Source of the DNA: Acidobacteriota bacterium
GTDB lineage: Bacteria; Acidobacteriota; Terriglobia; Terriglobales; Acidobacteriaceae
Reading direction: 5' to 3'
DNA length: 37,546 nucleotides
Assembly (NCBI GenBank): GCA_028872955.1
Contig: JAGWNX010000033.1
Coordinates: 1-37,546 of the forward strand
Part shown: piece by piece, positions 5,396 through 13,907 of the stretch
Layout of the letters: the number at the start of each line of letters is the position of its first letter
Position numbering within the stretch: the stretch's first letter is position 1
Translations under genes and position numbers: made by a program
Notes under the pieces: model-generated
Databases searched by the model: none
Seen by the model: the letters and a program-made list of their open reading frames with translations, nothing else
What the model was told of the DNA's origin: nothing

Positions 5396-8300
5396 GTGTC
5401 TTCGTTGATCTGTGTCCCAGCCAACCCAGCCCTGCTGACCATGCTGGTTACCGCCCAGCCCATGAGGTTACGCGGTCTGGATCTGCTGCTGATCGCTCTG
5501 TATCTGCTGGGCATCACACTCTTCGGTCTGCGCTTTCGCAGCAAGGCCTCCGGCACTTCTCTTAAGAGTTATTTTCTCGCCGACAAGGTTATCCCCTGGT
5601 GGGCCATCGCACTCTCCATCGTCTCGGCAGAGACCTCCACGCTCACCATCATCTCCGTGCCCGGCGTGGCCTACACGGGCGACTTCGGCTTTCTGCAGAT
5701 CGTGTTTGGCTACCTGCTGGGCCGCGTCGTCGTGGCTGCGCTGTTTCTTCCGCGCTACATCCACGGTGACATGCTGACCGCCTACCAGCTGATCGATCGG
5801 CGCTTTGGGCCTGCCCTGCACAAGGTTACCGCCGCGCTGTTTCTGCTGACGCGTGCTGCGGCAGAGGGCGTGCGCGTCTTCGCGGTCTCCATCGTCGTCA
5901 GCATCGCCATCGGCACGGGAGACGTGCTCTCCATCGCCATCATCACGCTGCTTACCCTGCTGTACACGTTTGAGGGCGGCATGGCCGCCGTCATCTGGAC
6001 CGATGTCGCGCAGATGGCCATCTACCTCGGCGGCACGCTGGTCGCCATGCTCACCCTCGGCACCCACGTCCACGGGGGATGGCCGCAGATTCTGCACGTC
6101 ACCCACGCCGCGCACAAGCTGACGCTCTTCCACTTTGCGTTCAATCTCACGCAGTCCTACACCTTCTGGGCGGGTGTGCTGGGCGGCACTTTTCTCACCA
6201 TGGCCAGCCACGGCACAGACCAGCTGATGGTGCAGCGCATGCTGGCGGCACGGAACCTGCGCGAGTCCCGGCTGGCGCTGCTCAGCTCCGGTGCCGTCAT
6301 CTTTGTGCAGTTCAGCCTCTTCCTGCTCATCGGCGCGGGCCTCTACGTCTTCTACAACCTGGGAGGCGCGGCTCTGCCATCGGCACTCTCGCCAGATCGC
6401 ATCTTCCCGACCTTCATCGTTGCGGAGATGCCCCAGGGCATCGCCGGCCTGCTGATCGCCGCCATCCTGGCGGCAGCCATGTCGAATCTCTCCGCTGCGC
6501 TCAACTCGCTCAGCTCCACGACGGTCGTGGACTTCTACCTGCATCTGCGGCCCAACGCCGACGGCCACGAGCGACTGCTACTCTCACGCAGCGCGACCCT
6601 CGCCTGGGCCTGCGTGCTCTTCGCCATCGCGGTCTACAGCATCCACGTCGGCGGCAAGGGGCATGTGGTGGAGACCGGCCTCTCGATTGCCTCGGTGGCC
6701 TACGGCTCGCTGCTGGGCGTCTTTCTGCTGGGCACGCTCACACGGTATGCAACGGAGTCAGGCACAATTATCGGCATGGTCTGCGGCTTTGCGCTCAATC
6801 TCTATCTCTGGCTCGGCAGCTTTCCAGTGCGGATGGGCGGCTTTACTTTGCCGCGCATCGCCTTCACCTGGTTTGTGCTCCTCGGCGCGGTTGTCACCTT
6901 CTGCGTCGGCTCGCTGGCCAGCCTGATCGTCCGCAGAGCGTCTGCACGAGCCATGGTTGCCCTGCTGCTCTGTCTTGGCCTGGCCCATTCGGCCGTTGCT
7001 CAAAGCAGCAGGCCGGGCCAGTCATTGCAGTTTGCCCCCGTCGATGACCTGATCCAGAACGCCATCGCCGCCAGGAAGCTTCCCGGTGCTGTCCTGATCA
7101 TCGGGCACCAGGGATCGGTGGTCTACCGGCACGCCTATGGTGTGCGCAAGCTCGCCGGCGAGCCGGGAGTGGATGGCCGCCCCTCTGCCGCTGAACCCAT
7201 GACGCTCGACACGGTCTTTGACATGGCCTCGCTCACCAAGTGCCTGGTCACGGCGGTGGCCGTCCTGCAATTACAAGAGGCAGGCAAGCTCGACGTCGAT
7301 CACCCGGTTGTCGAGTACCTGCCCGAGTTCGCCGCAAACGGCAAGCAGAGTGTCACTGTTCGTGATCTGCTCACCCACTACTCCGGCCTGCCGGAGGACG
7401 TTGACTTGAAGGACGCCTGGGGACTGGCCGCGCCGGATAAAGCAGAGGGGCTGCGCCGTGCCCTCACCTCGCCGCTGACCGCAGCCCCCGGCACACACTT
7501 CGAGTACTCTGACGTCAACTTCATCACCTTGGGTGCACTCGTCGAGCGGCTCAGCGGTCAGACGCTCGACGTCTACGCGCAGCAGCACATCTTTACGCCG
7601 CTGGGCATGACCCAGACGCGCTATCTTCCCCTGGCCAACTGTGGCAGCCGCTGCAACCTCGTAGCCGAAGCCATCGCGCCCACGGCCCACGACGATCAGG
7701 GCACCGCCGCAACCAACCCTGACTTTGATCACCTGCTGCGCGGCGTCGTGCATGACCCCACCACACGGCGCATGGGTGGCGTCGCAGGGCACGCGGGCGT
7801 CTTCTCCACGGCAGCGGATACGGCACGCTTTGCGCAGGCGCTGCTGGACAAGCTCCTGCGGAACAGCGGGCCGTTCCCGCTCCAGCAGTCCACGCTGCAG
7901 CGCATGACGCGTCCGCAGCAGCCAGCCACTGCGCAGACGGGTGCGACCATCTTCACGGCTGAGGGTCAACTGACCAAGGGCGTCGCGGCGCGTGGCTTCG
8001 GCTGGGATATCAACTCGGCCTTCTCGCGTCCGCGCGGCGAGGTCTTCCCCATCGCCACCGCCACCGCGCCGGGCTCGTTTGGCCATACGGGGTTTACCGG
8101 CACGTCGCTGTGGATTGACCCGGTGAGCGACACGTATGTCCTCCTGCTGGCCAACGCCATTCACCCGCGCGGCAATCCACCCATCTCCGGACTGCGCGGG
8201 CAGGTGGCCACCGCGGCAGCCCGCGTGCTGGGCCTGCCGCAGACCACCGCCGCACCTGAGACACAGAGCGCTGAGCCTGCGACGCTGACGGGCCTGGACA

Positions 8301-9583
8301 CCCTGGTCGCCACCCACTATGCCGCGCTGGCCGCCGCCGTCGCCCGCCACCGCGGCAACCTGCGCGCTGGCCTGCTGACCAATCAGACCGGGCTGGATGC
8401 CCTGCACCGCCGCACCATCGACATCCTCTACCAGGATGCAGCGCGCGCCGTACCCGGCTTCTCGCTCACCACCCTCTTCTCGCCCGAGCACGGCATCCTG
8501 GGCGTTGCCGATACGGAGGACCTGCACAACGAGACGGACCCGCGCACCGGGTTGCCCGTCGTCTCGCTCTACGGCCCGCACGACGCCGACAAACGCCCCT
8601 CGCATGAGGCGTTACGCAACCTCGATGCCGTCATCATCGATCTGCAGGACGCCGGCGTGCGCTTCTTCACCTACGACACCGTCGTCGGTTACTTTCTGGA
8701 GGCCGCCGCCCAGGAGCGCGCCCTCGGCCACACGCTCGATATCGTCGTGCTGGACCGTCCCAATCCGCTCAGCGGCGACCGCGTGCAGGGCCCGGTCTCC
8801 GATGCCAACCTGACCGCGTACACCAACTACATGCCCTTGCCCATACGGCACGGCATGACCATTGGCGAGCTGGCCCGCTACATCAACCACGAAAATCGCC
8901 GCGCAGACCCTGCCCTGCCCGGCGTCTTCGCCCCGCTCAACGCGCCCCTCACCGTCGTGCCCATGGAGTACTGGCGGCGCAGCATGTACTTTGACCAGAC
9001 AGGCGGCAGCTGGATCAACCCCAGCCCGAACCTGCACTCCCTGGCTGCCGAGATCCTTTACCCCGGCGTGGAGTTGCTGCAGTTCACCAACGTCTCCGTC
9101 GGTCGCGGGACAGACCGGCCTTTTGAGCAGATCGGCGCCTGCTGGCCCCCGCGCAAGCCAGCCGGCAGGCACGCCTCGCCCCCTGTTCCGTGCCCGGCTG
9201 AGGATCAGTTGGACGGCACGGCACTGGCCGCCTACCTGAACGACCGTCATATTCCCGGCGTGAGCTTTGCCCCCACCACGTTTACCGTGGCAGAGGACGC
9301 CAACCACTCCCCCTACCACGGGCAGACCGTAACCGGTGTCTCCCTGACGGTGACGGATCGCGACCAGCTCGACTCGCCCGAACTGGGTATCGAACTGCTG
9401 AGCGCGCTGCACCACCTGTACCCGCAGCGCTTTGCCATGGATCGCGCCGAGCGCCTGATCGCCAACATCAATACCCTGCAGGCCCTGCAAAACGGCGATG
9501 ATCCCCGTCAGATTGCCGCCGCCTGGCAGAGTGACCTGAAGAGTTATCTGGAGCGGCGTGCTGCTTACCTGCTCTACCGCTAG
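5396..9583 (+). CDS. Triple fusion: SSS transporter - AmiE-like serine hydrolase - NamZ (DUF1343)
   Basis: One uninterrupted frame of 1395 codons holds three proteins usually encoded separately. Residues about 26-515 are a sodium:solute symporter with 13 hydrophobic helices (an early TM segment VIPWWAIALSIVSAE, later GTDQLMVQRML and AAMSNLSAALNSLSS). Residues about 545-945 are a beta-lactamase-fold serine hydrolase: nucleophile motif S612-L-T-K615, Y704-S-D706 and H897-T-G899. Residues about 970-1395 are NamZ/DUF1343, with LLTNQTG, FSPEHG (E1031-H1032) and IDLQDAGVRFFTY. In Bacillus subtilis AmiE and NamZ are encoded in the same operon as a PTS MurNAc transporter. Here transporter and enzymes are joined, suggesting coupled peptide removal, MurNAc release and import. 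The start is uncertain: GTG 5396, ATG 5441 and ATG 5462 all lack a strong ribosome site. Two separately translated proteins, from the internal ATG at 6953, remain possible. Confidence 0.88.
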   Translation: MSSLICVPANPALLTMLVTAQPMRLRGLDLLLIALYLLGITLFGLRFRSKASGTSLKSYFLADKVIPWWAIALSIVSAETSTLTIISVPGVAYTGDFGFLQIVFGYLLGRVVVAALFLPRYIHGDMLTAYQLIDRRFGPALHKVTAALFLLTRAAAEGVRVFAVSIVVSIAIGTGDVLSIAIITLLTLLYTFEGGMAAVIWTDVAQMAIYLGGTLVAMLTLGTHVHGGWPQILHVTHAAHKLTLFHFAFNLTQSYTFWAGVLGGTFLTMASHGTDQLMVQRMLAARNLRESRLALLSSGAVIFVQFSLFLLIGAGLYVFYNLGGAALPSALSPDRIFPTFIVAEMPQGIAGLLIAAILAAAMSNLSAALNSLSSTTVVDFYLHLRPNADGHERLLLSRSATLAWACVLFAIAVYSIHVGGKGHVVETGLSIASVAYGSLLGVFLLGTLTRYATESGTIIGMVCGFALNLYLWLGSFPVRMGGFTLPRIAFTWFVLLGAVVTFCVGSLASLIVRRASARAMVALLLCLGLAHSAVAQSSRPGQSLQFAPVDDLIQNAIAARKLPGAVLIIGHQGSVVYRHAYGVRKLAGEPGVDGRPSAAEPMTLDTVFDMASLTKCLVTAVAVLQLQEAGKLDVDHPVVEYLPEFAANGKQSVTVRDLLTHYSGLPEDVDLKDAWGLAAPDKAEGLRRALTSPLTAAPGTHFEYSDVNFITLGALVERLSGQTLDVYAQQHIFTPLGMTQTRYLPLANCGSRCNLVAEAIAPTAHDDQGTAATNPDFDHLLRGVVHDPTTRRMGGVAGHAGVFSTAADTARFAQALLDKLLRNSGPFPLQQSTLQRMTRPQQPATAQTGATIFTAEGQLTKGVAARGFGWDINSAFSRPRGEVFPIATATAPGSFGHTGFTGTSLWIDPVSDTYVLLLANAIHPRGNPPISGLRGQVATAAARVLGLPQTTAAPETQSAEPATLTGLDTLVATHYAALAAAVARHRGNLRAGLLTNQTGLDALHRRTIDILYQDAARAVPGFSLTTLFSPEHGILGVADTEDLHNETDPRTGLPVVSLYGPHDADKRPSHEALRNLDAVIIDLQDAGVRFFTYDTVVGYFLEAAAQERALGHTLDIVVLDRPNPLSGDRVQGPVSDANLTAYTNYMPLPIRHGMTIGELARYINHENRRADPALPGVFAPLNAPLTVVPMEYWRRSMYFDQTGGSWINPSPNLHSLAAEILYPGVELLQFTNVSVGRGTDRPFEQIGACWPPRKPAGRHASPPVPCPAEDQLDGTALAAYLNDRHIPGVSFAPTTFTVAEDANHSPYHGQTVTGVSLTVTDRDQLDSPELGIELLSALHHLYPQRFAMDRAERLIANINTLQALQNGDDPRQIAAAWQSDLKSYLERRAAYLLYR
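6938..7003 (+). other. Internal signal-peptide-like segment joining transporter and enzyme domains
   Basis: After the thirteenth helix comes a positively charged turn (RRASAR), then M520 and the hydrophobic run VALLLCLGLAH ending in SAVA-Q536. This is a textbook signal peptide with a signal peptidase I site after A535. A 13-helix SSS protein ends in the cytoplasm, so this segment would act as helix 14 and put both enzyme domains in the periplasm. It could also be cut by LepB to release them. The ATG at 6953 has no convincing ribosome site, only GAG six bases upstream. Confidence 0.7.
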
Positions 9584-9703: not shown

Positions 9704-10378
9704 ATGCCCCGCATCCACTTCCAACAACAACTTGTTGCACTCAAGGACAAGCTGCTCGCCATGGCGGCGCTCTCGCAGCAGGCGCTTGGCCTCAGCGTGG
9801 AGGCGTACGTCAAGGGCGACATCGGACTCTGTGACCACGTGCTGGAGATCGAGGCCGCCATCAACGCCGCCGAGACCAGCGTGGATGAGATGGCCTACGA
9901 CCTGCTGGCGAAGGAGCAGCCCATGGCCATCGACCTGCGCTTCATCCTCTCCGTCATCAAGATCAACGGCGACCTGGAGCGCATCGGCGACCAATCCTCA
10001 AACATTGCGCAACGCGCCGTGCTGCTGAAAGATATGCCCCGCCTGAAGCTGCCGGTTGACCTGGCCGAGATGGGAGAGAAGGTCGGTGTCATGATTCGCA
10101 CCGCCATCCAGTCGCTGCTGGAGGCGGACGCCCGGCTTGCCGAGTCCGCCATCGCGATGGATGACGAGATCGACCAGATGAACCGCACCGTACAGGCAGA
10201 GCTGGTGAGCATGATGCAGGGAGACCCGGCCATCAGCACCCAGGCGCTGAACGCCATCATCGTCTCGCGCAACCTGGAGCGCGCCGCCGACCACGCCAGC
10301 AACATTGCGGAAGACGTCATCTTCTGGGTGCGCGGCTCCGACGTCCGCCACCAGTACTCGCTTGCTGGCTCCGAGTAA
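9704..10378 (+). CDS. phoU: PhoU-type phosphate signalling / uptake regulator
   Basis: A cytoplasmic protein of 224 residues, standard for PhoU, expected to damp phosphate uptake and two-component signalling when phosphate is plentiful. Two PhoU repeats are visible. The first has the metal-binding type motif ERIGDQSSNIAQRA, with AAINAAETSVDEMAYDLL before it; the second has NLERAADHASNIAEDVIFWV. The ATG at 9704 is preceded by AGAGGG with nine bases of spacing. No pst, phoB or phoR genes are adjacent: the upstream gene is the transporter/NamZ fusion and the downstream gene is sulfite reductase, so it is genomically isolated within this window. Confidence 0.92.
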   Translation: MPRIHFQQQLVALKDKLLAMAALSQQALGLSVEAYVKGDIGLCDHVLEIEAAINAAETSVDEMAYDLLAKEQPMAIDLRFILSVIKINGDLERIGDQSSNIAQRAVLLKDMPRLKLPVDLAEMGEKVGVMIRTAIQSLLEADARLAESAIAMDDEIDQMNRTVQAELVSMMQGDPAISTQALNAIIVSRNLERAADHASNIAEDVIFWVRGSDVRHQYSLAGSE

Positions 10379-10404: not shown

Positions 10405-10433
10405 TTGACACTGGGTTGCCACCAAAGTAGGCT
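10405..10433 (+). promoter_or_regulatory. Promoter of the cysteine-responsive leader
   Basis: A perfect -35 TTGACA (10405-10410), a 17-base spacer and TAGGCT (10428-10433, matching TANNNT) are followed after six bases by the ATG at 10440. The expected transcription start coincides with the A of that ATG, so the leader peptide would be read from a leaderless mRNA. Confidence 0.65.
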
Positions 10434-10439
10434 TAAGGC

Positions 10440-10517
10440 ATGTCAATGCACCTCGCACTCTGTCGCATGAGCTGTCGCACCTGTTGTTGCGACTCTGTGC
10501 GCGCCTGCGTTGCGTGA
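10440..10517 (+). CDS. Cysteine-rich 25-residue leader peptide
   Basis: This small ORF has 25 codons and six are cysteine (positions 8, 12, 15, 16, 17 and 23), with three Cys codons in a row at 10482-10490. A second in-frame ATG lies at 10446. It sits between a strong promoter and an intrinsic terminator, directly upstream of the sulfite reductase gene. This is the position expected for a regulatory leader that senses Cys-tRNA rather than a functional product. Polycysteine leader ORFs, some of them leaderless, are known attenuators of sulfur genes in mycobacteria. The link here is by analogy plus visible RNA pairing. Confidence 0.7.
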   Translation: MSMHLALCRMSCRTCCCDSVRACVA

Positions 10518-10595
10518 TCTTTCGACGTCCCCCGGGACTCCCTCGAATCTCAGCACCCGACACACAGCGCCCACGAACAACGTGGGCCTTTGTTT
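10503..10595 (+). promoter_or_regulatory. Antiterminator / terminator switch (cysteine attenuator)
   Basis: Terminator: stem GCCCACG (10569-10575), loop AACAA, stem CGTGGGC (10581-10587), then CTTTGTTT. Antiterminator: bases 10503-10516 at the end of the leader ORF can pair with 10572-10587, using 14 pairs (two of them G-U) around a two-base AA bulge. That would consume the whole right arm and most of the left arm of the terminator. A ribosome stalled on the Cys codons at 10482-10490 leaves 10508-10516 free, so the antiterminator forms. A ribosome at the leader stop (10515-10517) covers it and the terminator forms. A smaller hairpin (CGCAC 10476-10480 with GTGCG 10497-10501) could be the pause hairpin. 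Confidence 0.7.
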
Positions 10596-10628
10596 ATCTG
10601 CACCCTTGCAAAGGATGATTCAAATACC

Positions 10629-12362
10629 ATGAGTGACGCTGCCCAGCCTGTGGCCCCTGCCATCAAAGAGACGAAAGCCCAGAAGTCCGAGCGCCTGAAG
10701 CTCGCCAAGAACCCTTGGGAAGCCTGGGACGAAGTGCGCGCCTTTGCAGCCAACGGACGCGACACCGTGCTGCCCGAGTGGGCCAACCTCTACTTCAAGT
10801 GGTGGGGCGTCTACACGCAGGGCGATGGCCTGGGCGTGACCGGCGGCGTTGGCGGCGAGGGCAAGGCTACCGAGTACTTCATGATGCGCATCGGCCTGCC
10901 TAACGGCAAGCTCACCAGCCAGCAGCTGCGCGTGATTGGCAACCTGACCCGCAAGCACGCCAACAACCTGGCCGACATCACGACGCGGCAGTGCATTCAG
11001 CTGCACTGGCTCACCATCTCCGGCCTGGTGGAGGTGATCGATGCGCTGGAGGCTGTGGGTCTGTCGCCCAAGGGTGCCTGCGGCGACGTCGTTCGCAACG
11101 TGACCGGCTGCCCGCTCGCCGGCCTGCAGCACGACGAGCTGATCGATGCCAGCCCGCTGGCCGCGCAGATCTCCCGCCACCTGACGGCCAACGCCGAGTT
11201 CTACAACCTGCCGCGCAAGTTCAAGATCTCGGTGACGGGCTGCCCGGTGTGGTGCACGTTCCCTGAGATCAACGACCTGGCGCTCACGGCGATCGCTCGT
11301 GAGGTGAATGGCCAGCGCGAGATCGGCTACACGCTGCGCGTGGGCGGCGGCCTCTCCAATGAGCCGCACATCGCCGTGCGCATCCCGGCCTTCATCCCGC
11401 AGGATAAGGCCCTGGACGTGGTGACTGCCGTGGCCCGCATCTTCAAGGAGCAGACCAGCCTGCGCGAGAACCGCACACGCGCGCGCATCAAGTATCTGTT
11501 CATGAAGCACGGCTGGACTGCGGAGTCCATGCTCGCCGCCATCGAGGCCAAGCTCGGCTACAAGCTGGACCCCAGCCCGCGTTCGGAGGACCTGGTGCCG
11601 GCCGATGTGTATCGCGACCACGTTGGCGTGCTGCCGCAGCAGCAGCCCGGCCTCAGCTCGGTCGGTGCCTCGGTGCTCAACGGCCGACTCTCCGGCGACC
11701 AGTTGATCGAGCTGGCCGACCTGGCCGAGAAGTATGGCGATGGGCATCTGCGCGCCACCATCGGGCAGAACATCCTCATCGTCAACGTGCCCAACGAGCA
11801 GTCTGCCGCGCTGGTAGTCGCGCTCAATACGCTCAAGCTGCATGTGGACGTCTCGGCCTTCTGGCGCGGCGCCATCGCCTGCACGGGAACCGAGTTCTGC
11901 AAGCTGGCGATTGCCGAGACCAAGGGATTCAACAAGTGGCTGGTCTCAGAGCTGGAGGAGCGCCTGCCCGGCTTCGATCAGCAGATTCGCCTGCACGTGA
12001 CCGGCTGCACCAACTCCTGCGGCCAGAGCTGGATTGCGGACATTGGCCTGGAGGGTAAGAAGATCAAGAAGGACGGTCGCATGACCGACGCCTTCTACTT
12101 CTGCGTGGGCGGCTCGGTCGGCAAGTATGCCCGCCCTGCCCGGCAGATCGGCTTCCGCGCCGCTGCCGAGGACTGCCCGGACGCAATCGAGCGCCTGCTG
12201 CGCAACTACCTGGACGCGCGCAACCCAGGCGAAGACCTGCGCGCCTACTTTGACCGTACGGACGATGAGACGCTGCGCCATCAACTGGCCGGTGCCGACG
12301 TCGAACCCGTCGTGCGCGATACCCCGCCCGCCCTGGTCGGCTTCCACGTCCCCGGCGAGTAG
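10629..12362 (+). CDS. Ferredoxin-dependent sulfite (or nitrite) reductase
   Basis: A siroheme and [4Fe-4S] enzyme catalysing six-electron reduction of sulfite to sulfide (or nitrite to ammonia) in the cytoplasm, 577 residues. The start is ATG 10629, with AAGGA at 10611-10615. The double repeat of ferredoxin-like half domains and siroheme domains is evident: TGGVGGEG, TRQCIQLHW, VTGCPVWC. The cluster ligands are C418-x5-C424 (CTGTEFC) and C460-x3-C464 (CTNSCG). It lies behind a polycysteine attenuator and ahead of two siroheme-synthesis genes. This favours assimilatory sulfite reduction for cysteine synthesis over nitrite reduction; sequence motifs alone do not separate the two. A 148-bp gap with a strong hairpin separates it from the next gene. 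Confidence 0.9.
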   Translation: MSDAAQPVAPAIKETKAQKSERLKLAKNPWEAWDEVRAFAANGRDTVLPEWANLYFKWWGVYTQGDGLGVTGGVGGEGKATEYFMMRIGLPNGKLTSQQLRVIGNLTRKHANNLADITTRQCIQLHWLTISGLVEVIDALEAVGLSPKGACGDVVRNVTGCPLAGLQHDELIDASPLAAQISRHLTANAEFYNLPRKFKISVTGCPVWCTFPEINDLALTAIAREVNGQREIGYTLRVGGGLSNEPHIAVRIPAFIPQDKALDVVTAVARIFKEQTSLRENRTRARIKYLFMKHGWTAESMLAAIEAKLGYKLDPSPRSEDLVPADVYRDHVGVLPQQQPGLSSVGASVLNGRLSGDQLIELADLAEKYGDGHLRATIGQNILIVNVPNEQSAALVVALNTLKLHVDVSAFWRGAIACTGTEFCKLAIAETKGFNKWLVSELEERLPGFDQQIRLHVTGCTNSCGQSWIADIGLEGKKIKKDGRMTDAFYFCVGGSVGKYARPARQIGFRAAAEDCPDAIERLLRNYLDARNPGEDLRAYFDRTDDETLRHQLAGADVEPVVRDTPPALVGFHVPGE

Positions 12363-12510: not shown

Positions 12511-13170
12511 ATGAGTCTCTTTCCGCTCTTCCTCAAGCTTACGGGCCGTCCCTGCCTCGTCATCGGTGCGGGCAATCTGGCCGAATCGAAGATTGAGTCT
12601 CTGCTGGCCGCCAACGGCCGCGTCACGGTGATCGCAACCGCTGCCAGCCCACGCGTGCTGGAGCTTGCAGCCGGCGGAGACATTACGCTGCACCTGCGCC
12701 CCTACGCACCCGGCGACGTGCACGACGTGTTCCTGGTTGTGACCGCGACGGACGACCCCGCAGTCAACCGCGCCGTCTACCAGGAGGCCGTCAGCAAGCA
12801 CGTGCTGTGCAACGCCGTCGATGACCCGCCGTTCTGCGACTTCTACTTCCCTTCCGTCGTCCGGCGCGGTGACCTGCAGATCGCCATCTCCACCGCCGGG
12901 GCCAGCCCCGCCCTGGCGCAACGGTTGCGCAAAGAGATCAACGCAGCGCTGCCCCTGGACACCGGAGACTGGCTGACCGACCTGGGCAATCTGCGCCGCG
13001 AGGTGGTGGCTGCCGAGCCTCTGAACGAGGCACGCAAGCTCTTTCTGCACCAGTTGGCACAGCGCGAGGTATGCGGCTTCGACCAATGCCCCTCCCGCAC
13101 GCTGGCCCGTGAGCACGCACGCAACAATCCACTTCCCCATTCCCCCTCCGCCAGCGAGCCCACGTCGTGA
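12511..13170 (+). CDS. Precorrin-2 dehydrogenase / sirohydrochlorin ferrochelatase (CysG N-domain type)
   Basis: Makes siroheme from precorrin-2: NAD-dependent oxidation, then iron insertion, in the cytoplasm. The product has 219 residues from ATG 12511. The NAD-binding Rossmann start CLVIGAGNLAESKIE is a variant of the family's GGGxVAxRK. The conserved central block is NAVDDPPFCDFYFPSVVRRG, followed by LQIAISTAGASPALAQ. The C-terminal dimerisation region is shorter than in CysG and ends in a low-complexity Pro/Ser tail. Its stop overlaps the start of the methyltransferase gene by four bases (GTGA), indicating translational coupling. The pair divides CysG functions between two proteins. Confidence 0.88.
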   Translation: MSLFPLFLKLTGRPCLVIGAGNLAESKIESLLAANGRVTVIATAASPRVLELAAGGDITLHLRPYAPGDVHDVFLVVTATDDPAVNRAVYQEAVSKHVLCNAVDDPPFCDFYFPSVVRRGDLQIAISTAGASPALAQRLRKEINAALPLDTGDWLTDLGNLRREVVAAEPLNEARKLFLHQLAQREVCGFDQCPSRTLAREHARNNPLPHSPSASEPTS

Positions 13171-13907
13171 GCCACTCGTTGCAACCCGGCATGGTGTACC
13201 TGGTAGGCGCTGGCCCCGGCGCGCCTGAGTTGCTTACCCTGCGCGCGGCGGAGCTGCTGAAGACCTGCGACGTGATCCTGCCCGACGACCTGGTCTCGGA
13301 CGCGATTCTGGACATGGCCAGCCCCACCGCCAACATCATTCCGGTGGGCAAGCGCTGCGGCCAGCCGCGGATCACCCAGGCCGGCATCCACCAGTTGATG
13401 CTGGAGCACGCCACGGCGGGCAGCACGGTGCTGCGGCTCAAGTCCGGCGACCCGCTCGTCTTCGGTCGCGCCGGAGAGGAGATGGCCTTTCTGCGCGAGC
13501 ACGGCATACCGTTTGAGATTGTTCCCGGCATCTCCACGGTCTTTGCCGCCGCCGCCAGCCTGCAGACCCCGCTGACCGACCGCAGCGCCGCCTCCAAGCT
13601 GGTGCTCGCCACGGCTCACCACGCCGCAGGCAAGGTGGAGCTCTCGCCCAGCTGGGCTGGTGCCTTTCCAGAGCACGCCACCCTGGTGATCTACATGCCC
13701 GGGCGCGACTTTGCCACACTGGCTGGTGACCTGATGCACTCCGGCATTGCCGCCAACACGCCCTGCATCGCCGTCAGCAAGGCGACGACGCCCGAAGAAC
13801 AGGTGACGGCCACTACGCTGGACCAGCTGGGCGTGGCAGCCATCGGGCCCGCGCCGGTCATCCTGTTGATAGGGCACGCGATTCAGGTCCCTTCGCCCAC
13901 AGCCTGA
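13167..13907 (+). CDS. cobA: Uroporphyrinogen-III C-methyltransferase
   Basis: A SAM-dependent methyltransferase converting uroporphyrinogen III to precorrin-2, feeding the preceding dehydrogenase/ferrochelatase. The product has 246 residues. The start is taken as GTG 13167, overlapping the upstream stop in a GTGA tetramer; an alternative is ATG 13191 just before the conserved block. Family motifs are VYLVGAGPGAPELLTLRA, the DDLV loop, VLRLKSGDPLVFGRAGEE, and IPFEIVPGIST with a run of Ala. Together with the reductase this forms a siroheme plus sulfite reductase unit. No cysH, cysD or cysN homologue is present in the window. Confidence 0.92.
   Translation: MSHSLQPGMVYLVGAGPGAPELLTLRAAELLKTCDVILPDDLVSDAILDMASPTANIIPVGKRCGQPRITQAGIHQLMLEHATAGSTVLRLKSGDPLVFGRAGEEMAFLREHGIPFEIVPGISTVFAAAASLQTPLTDRSAASKLVLATAHHAAGKVELSPSWAGAFPEHATLVIYMPGRDFATLAGDLMHSGIAANTPCIAVSKATTPEEQVTATTLDQLGVAAIGPAPVILLIGHAIQVPSPTA

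Follow-up and report, generated by a model that had tools for sequence, protein, structure and literature searches.

We analysed a 37,546-nt stretch of DNA from an Acidobacteriota bacterium of the family Acidobacteriaceae (GenBank assembly GCA_028872955.1, contig JAGWNX010000033.1; the whole stretch is called the window below), in which a short cysteine-rich open reading frame (ORF) lies between phoU (9704-10378) and the gene for a ferredoxin-type reductase (ATG at 10629). Judged from this sequence and from those of its relatives, the region very probably acts as a cysteine-responsive, ribosome-mediated transcription attenuator placed before sulfite reductase, an enzyme that would probably be made mainly under cysteine shortage. 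An earlier reading of the letters alone, which we call the original prediction, had proposed a leaderless polycysteine attenuator of the terminator/antiterminator type at this place; the comparative evidence supports that proposal, with the antiterminator corrected.

A conserved polycysteine leader

The individual parts named in the original prediction were all located in the window (Table 1): a TTGACA box and a TANNNT -10 box six bases before an ATG, an ORF of 25 codons, six of them for Cys and three of these in a row, and an intrinsic terminator shortly before the reductase, the U-rich tail of which ends about 33 bases from the reductase ATG. On the basis of the promoter spacing, the transcript would begin with the ATG at 10440 or immediately beside it, and the leader ORF, which has a further in-frame ATG at 10446 and its stop codon at 10515-10517, is probably translated without a Shine-Dalgarno sequence. 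A generic sigma-70 scan reported no site in the leader region, because TAGGCT has three of the six bases of TATAAT and the scan requires four. Riboswitches were sought with the Rfam models, and not one Rfam family scored above its gathering threshold anywhere in the window.

For comparison, 150 loci were gathered from the whole genomes of relatives and from named genome records. An orthologue of the reductase is present in 223 of 299 genomes of the family, from which we sampled the best 30 loci, 20 that came next in order and 20 further down; removal of duplicates, of short or badly placed matches and of matches below 55% identity (27 + 17) left 106 distinct upstream regions. Our strict rule required a -35 box with TTG and at least four of the six bases of TTGACA, 16-18 nt, TANNNT, a gap of 4-13 nt, and an ATG or GTG opening an ORF 8-60 codons long in which CysCys occurs and Cys totals three or more, followed by a terminator no more than 70 nt from the stop codon. 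This complete set was found in 80 of the 106 regions, window included, as opposed to none of the 106 reverse strands and none when the whole set was dinucleotide-shuffled ten times. The CysCys ORF by itself occurred in 92 regions, compared with 15 reverse strands and a mean of 11.5 per 106 shuffled regions, while the ORF together with promoter boxes was found in 81 regions, one reverse strand and no shuffled sequence. Among the 26 regions that failed the strict rule, 14 had no such ORF, 11 had no promoter boxes and one had no terminator; a looser test, asking for a short CysCys ORF and then a terminator, was passed by 92 of the 106. The leader arrangement is thus real and conserved, and not a product of chance.

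In the 92-leader set, Cys makes up 450 of 2321 leader residues. TTGAC-17-TANNNT is the promoter form conserved in the relatives: the first five bases of the -35 box are TTGAC in 71 of the 92 leaders, the spacer is 17 nt in 81, and the median gap from the -10 box to the start is 7, all of these being optimised figures in which the start was picked by promoter score (10446 was taken in the window), so that the strict yes/no test is the unoptimised one. A Shine-Dalgarno-like motif precedes the reductase in 74 of the 88 leaders for which its start was found.

Table 1. Features of the leader region and of the genes that follow it in the window
Feature	Position	Strand	Basis and remarks
-35-like box TTGACA	10405-10410	+	direct sequence reading
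-10-like box TAGGCT (TANNNT)	10428-10433	+	17-nt spacer; ATG after six bases
Leader ORF MSMHLALCRMSCRTCCCDSVRACVA	10440-10517	+	25 codons, 6 Cys; probably leaderless
Possible small hairpin GTCGCA/TGCGAC in leader ORF	10474-10493	+	candidate pause hairpin of the 1:2 type, from direct reading
Cys run TGT TGT TGC	10482-10490	+	codons read; predicted stall site
Antiterminator, leader strand	10497-10516	+	16 pairs with 10554-10574; -19.9 kcal/mol; covariation in 38 relatives
Antiterminator, downstream strand	10554-10574	+	overlaps terminator 5' arm; swap test and covariation
Intrinsic terminator hairpin GCCCACG-aacaa-CGTGGGC	10569-10587	+	7 pairs; terminator scan; covariation
U-rich tail CTTTGTTTAT	10588-10597	+	sequence reading and terminator scan
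Shine-Dalgarno-like AAAGGA of reductase	10610-10615	+	sequence reading; outside terminator
Ferredoxin-type sulfite reductase (NirA/SirA family)	10629-12362	+	PF01077 and PF03460; closest PDB sequence 1zj8
Sirohaem synthase, precorrin-2 dehydrogenase domain	12520-13170	+	domain start approximate; listed ORF from 12127
Uroporphyrinogen-III C-methyltransferase (sirohaem pathway)	13167-13907	+	domain matches

The antiterminator and the proposed switch

The original prediction had paired the end of the leader ORF with the loop and 3' arm of the terminator, in a 14-bp helix between 10503-10516 and 10572-10587. That complementarity is real (-18.4 kcal/mol) and the leader strand was chosen correctly; the partner was not, as in relatives this pairing is no better than that of swapped partners (native -12.33 vs swapped -12.72 kcal/mol in 61 representatives, with 4341 of 5000 permutations as good). 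When the 3' end of the ORF was instead tested against the terminator 5' arm together with the 26 bases ahead of it, native pairs were far better than exchanged ones: -21.87 vs -16.85 kcal/mol in the 61 representatives (0 of 5000 permutations as good), -22.1 vs -17.0 in all 91 usable leaders (0 of 10000), and -19.21 vs -16.81 in 30 representatives of the window's own clade (0 of 10000). Compared with dinucleotide shuffles, the mean z of the representatives was -1.85, and 34 of the 61 fell below -1.64. At least six leaders (L005, L006, L008, L031, L088 and L054) entered the swap and shuffle tests with too short a leader strand, a later CysCys having served as the anchor, a fault that should have made those tests less sensitive; for the first five of them the leader ends were corrected in the covariation alignment. 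In the window, the two pairings are almost equal in strength (-19.8 kcal/mol with the loop and 3' arm, -19.9 with the 5' arm), and the CTTTGC/GCAAAG core of the relatives is absent, both strands differing there together in the alignment.

Covariation was evaluated in 38 leaders of the window's clade, 37 of them chosen by peptide pattern and one (L056) by hand. The 13 antiterminator pairs were set by reading the alignment together with the computed duplexes, so this structure leans towards the sequences from which it was written down. With that bias, 80.7% of antiterminator cells were paired, vs 29-51% with one strand slid by 1-3 columns, and cells changed on both sides numbered 27, vs 12.2 in shuffles (0 of 500 as high); the paired percentage, the both-side changes and the covariation score all exceeded 500 of 500 shuffles. 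Compensatory stem changes and conserved Cys codons, which the original prediction had named as its check among orthologues, are both found, the former in the corrected helix. The corresponding paired percentage for the terminator was 88.8% of cells, vs 31-48% when slid, and its shuffle tests gave the same picture as those of the antiterminator. RNAalifold, applied to the same alignment, returned the terminator together with a small hairpin in the leader, and no antiterminator, as expected because the two structures compete. For the GTCGCA/TGCGAC hairpin in the leader ORF, codon conservation could account for the complementarity just as well. On this comparative evidence the conserved antiterminator partner of the leader strand is the pre-terminator segment with the terminator 5' arm, and not the loop with the 3' arm.

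We propose that RNA polymerase starts at the first leader ATG (10440) or right beside it and that ribosomes read the leader ORF with no Shine-Dalgarno sequence. When Cys-tRNA is plentiful, the ribosome would get to the stop codon, where its usual footprint covers about 10497-10528 and would hide the leader strand (10497-10516), leaving the terminator at 10569-10587 to fold and the polymerase to stop. With Cys-tRNA in short supply, the ribosome would stall in the Cys run and leave the leader strand free to pair with 10554-10574 before the terminator 3' arm exists; the 5' arm would then be held, and the polymerase would continue through to the genes for sulfite reductase and sirohaem synthesis. 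Ample Cys-tRNA should thus give termination and a shortage read-through, since a ribosome at the stop codon covers the leader strand and a stalled one does not. The locus has four features of amino acid attenuators of the trp/his class, namely tandem codons for the amino acid of the pathway, an intrinsic terminator between the leader ORF and the first gene, an antiterminator that shares sequence with both the terminator and the leader ORF (significant in the set of relatives and not in the window alone), and genes behind the leader, those for sulfite reductase and sirohaem, that serve synthesis of the amino acid presumably sensed.

Several results weigh against such a switch. At equilibrium, all seven 5' ends tried gave a folded terminator (probability 0.998-1.0), and placing the ribosome at different positions did not separate the two states in these calculations; as the terminator wins at equilibrium, the switch would have to be kinetic, which is usual for attenuators. 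In folds computed before the 3' arm exists, at least 40% of the 5' arm was paired in 34 of 91 leaders when the ribosome was stalled and in 25 of 91 when it stood at the stop codon, a weak difference. Taken alone, the antiterminator of the window does not reach significance (z -0.95, with 17 of 100 shuffles doing as well). In the covariation alignment, 8 of the 13 antiterminator pairs had both-side changes, a number reached in 31 of 500 shuffles, further pair types were matched by 162 of 500, and the same two measures were unexceptional for the terminator (177 and 89 of 500 shuffles). The early single Cys codons (C8 and C12) could stall ribosomes ahead of the CCC run, and 14 of the 106 regions do not have even the looser set (L011, L021, L051, L062, L123, L124, L126-L129, L134, L136, L141 and L144). 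Finally, the Shine-Dalgarno-like motif of the reductase is somewhat more paired than its surroundings (0.59 vs 0.43 in 63 leaders), which leaves room for a translational contribution.

This last observation bears on the best placed of the alternatives, which we nevertheless regard as improbable: translational attenuation as in mycobacteria, in which the Cys leader would govern access to the ribosome-binding site of the reductase and the hairpin at 10569-10587 would have another role. Precedent exists, as actinobacterial Cys leaders have been described without obvious terminators (PMC1262725) and those of Mycobacterium smegmatis have been termed translation attenuation (PMC13236596), and many cysD leaders of the same family have no terminator by the rule applied. 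Yet AAAGGA lies outside the terminator and the mean probability that such motifs pair with leader or terminator sequence is 0.21 (63 leaders), the covarying conserved partner of the leader is the terminator 5' arm, and the hairpins bear U-rich tails (a feature that the search rule demanded). Still less probable is a functional Cys-rich peptide with a metal, redox or iron-sulfur role, or a nascent peptide that senses a ligand instead of the Cys-tRNA supply; the pattern C..CCCD.VR..LC does recur in the window's clade, but between clades CysCys stays while the remainder of the peptide varies (compared by eye), and the 3' part of the ORF is accounted for by RNA pairing with the downstream strand. 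It is hardly credible that the terminator does no more than close the upstream gene and that the Cys-rich frame is unrelated or arose by chance, even with the end of phoU so close upstream, given the strict set in the relatives and in neither control, promoter-like boxes that lie downstream of phoU, and a leader with terminator in 67 of 77 regions having no phoU end motif within 450 bases upstream (25 of 29 with the motif), because of which the terminator is not simply that of phoU.

The reductase and other cysteine leaders

The genes 3' of the reductase are for synthesis of its own cofactor, sirohaem. By sequence, the closest solved structure is Mycobacterium tuberculosis 1zj8, deposited as probable nitrite reductase NirA, which we take to be a sulfite reductase. 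In pairwise alignments the window reductase and 1zj8 have in common the WWGxYTQ Tyr, the ACGD Cys and the motif PRKxK, whereas in the nitrite reductases 3b0h, 2akj and 3b0l that motif reads PRKWN and the ACGD place has no Cys, the Tyr lying beyond their aligned part. The Tyr-Cys pair and the Lys of PRKxK are marks of sulfite reductases, and by these active-site residues the window enzyme looks to be of the sulfite and not the nitrite type. In agreement with the residues, the cysteine leader itself favours sulfite over nitrite as the substrate. A second NIR_SIR protein of the same genome (L002, contig 1) is 34% identical to the window reductase, and no CysCys frame was found in the 630 bases before its aligned start. 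Upstream of phoU, a single ORF of 1395 amino acids (5396-9583, plus strand) combines a sodium:solute symporter domain, a beta-lactamase-family domain and the two domains of NamZ (exo-beta-N-acetylmuramidase), an arrangement that looks like a fusion of cell-wall fragment transport with cleavage.

Elsewhere in the same genome, a second Cys ORF, MNRSAHIMCCACRACRCMARACGC, with its own terminator precedes cysD (G000 contig 77, about 7072-6998, minus strand, coordinates obtained by arithmetic from L153). Its boxes are TTGACA-17-GATGCT, and it was missed by the TANNNT promoter rule because of this -10 box. The presence of this second leader suggests a cysteine regulon. In the host family, a CysCys ORF holding four or more Cys is present in 27 of 31 scored cysD loci (four of 35, of unusual length, were excluded); a terminator by the applied rule accompanies it in 17 of these 27, a few doubtful (e.g. 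L203, L207, L223 and L226), and promoter-like boxes by a looser rule in 25. A further 19 cysD stretches (L239-L257, two of them from sister family f2) all have a Cys ORF, that of L239 being doubtful by position, and four have a terminator. Fifteen of the 21 terminator-bearing cysD leaders were taken for the pairing test, doubtful ones being left out, and for the 14 that were long enough the leader/5'-arm pairing was -19.5 kcal/mol in native vs -17.3 in swapped combinations (49 of 10000 permutations as good). Unlike that of the window genome, several cysD leaders of its own genus (L151, L154, L155, L156 and L241-L249) have a CysCys ORF (e.g. MRISCQLRCCCPFNVEQACRLTR) but no terminator by the applied rule. 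In four other loci (L123, L127, L128 and L134) the reductase directly follows phoU with no Cys leader, yet the genome of L128 (G237) has kept a Cys leader before cysD (L256). None of 15 loci of cysK-type genes (L163-L177) has a Cys leader by the promoter rule, and Cys-rich frames seen in five of them by a looser scan were judged unconvincing.

Beyond the host family, all eight loci read for the closer reductase of f2 (L227-L234) have a short CysCys ORF with at least three Cys, the ORF only being scored. For the more distant f2 reductase (L235-L238), a CysCys ORF lies near the gene in L238, only far upstream in L235 and L236, and is absent in L237. The class-wide and phylum-wide surveys were looser, covering neither promoter nor pairing and having no shuffle control. 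Across the class, 19 of 30 cysD loci were scored, three truncated ones with a possibly misplaced gene start, and a CysCys ORF with terminator was found in three, all from family f7 (3 of 4), and in none from f4 (5), f6 (6), f8 (3) or the single f1 locus. Across the phylum, four of 30 NIR_SIR loci have this combination in their first 1300 bases (L293, L295, L302 and L303, the last from f1). In two of them, from a distant acidobacterial family, leader-like ORFs containing a run of seven Cys are followed by a terminator (L293 121-208 and L295 127-250). Among sulfite reductase relatives outside Acidobacteriota (below 50% identity, L068-L081), Cys-rich frames occur in L068 and L071, neither of which resembles the window leader. 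A covariance model of the leader (R1) recovered this leader before the reductase from all 8 genomes. We inspected seven of its 24 further matches (L186-L191 and L193); the best, L186 (E 1.2e-5), has no Cys-rich frame, and the others, with E of at least 0.018, are not leader-like.

Taken as a whole, it is rather likely that Acidobacteriota possess a cysteine attenuation regulon of at least two sulfur-assimilation operons in a single genome (sulfite reductase with sirohaem synthesis, and cysD), each with a different polycysteine leader, which would be read out through a terminator in some lineages and, where no terminator was found, through Rho or translation in others, and that this would be the first cysteine-specific terminator/antiterminator attenuator.

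Relation to known systems

Canestrari et al. in 2020 reportedly described polycysteine leaderless short ORFs in mycobacteria. These ORFs are cited in PMC9094748 and PMC13236596, and as portrayed there they resemble the window in being short, with Cys codon runs before operons, in the leaderless start that is probable here and in cysteine as the signal proposed here. Leaderlessness is judged here from promoter spacing, the -10 box lying six bases from the ATG in the window and at a median of 7 in the relatives. The mycobacterial class is characterised by the absence of an intrinsic terminator and by control of translation (as described in PMC1262725 and PMC13236596), whereas the window, from another phylum, has a conserved intrinsic terminator and a covarying antiterminator; the two are set apart here by their descriptions and not by leader sequences. 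The same combination of likeness and difference applies to the Cys leader peptides reported in 2005 before cys operons of Mycobacterium and Propionibacterium acnes and before cbs of Bifidobacterium longum (PMC1262725): these too are short ORFs with Cys runs, but they have no obvious terminators and Rho was suggested for them, unlike the conserved terminator of the window type.

The terminator-less leaders of PMC1262725 left their mode of action open, and the mechanism becomes directly testable with a visible terminator and a covarying antiterminator. The related cysD leaders with and without a terminator offer a natural comparison between two read-outs of one signal. A 2010 survey contained almost no attenuators of Acidobacteriota with an assigned function (PMC2965389), and a probable function is now given to attenuators in that phylum. 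In the literature surveyed by title and the start of the abstract, with most subscription journals outside its range, we found neither a cysteine-specific terminator/antiterminator attenuator nor one from Acidobacteriota. In its proposed mechanism the window leader resembles the trp, his and ilv attenuators, including trp of Corynebacterium and Streptomyces (PMC1262725) and ilvB1 of M. tuberculosis (PMC13236596), which likewise combine an ORF of regulatory codons, a terminator, and an antiterminator formed from the 3' end of the leader. The window leader differs from them in that its amino acid is cysteine and in that its ORF would begin at or next to the start of the transcript.

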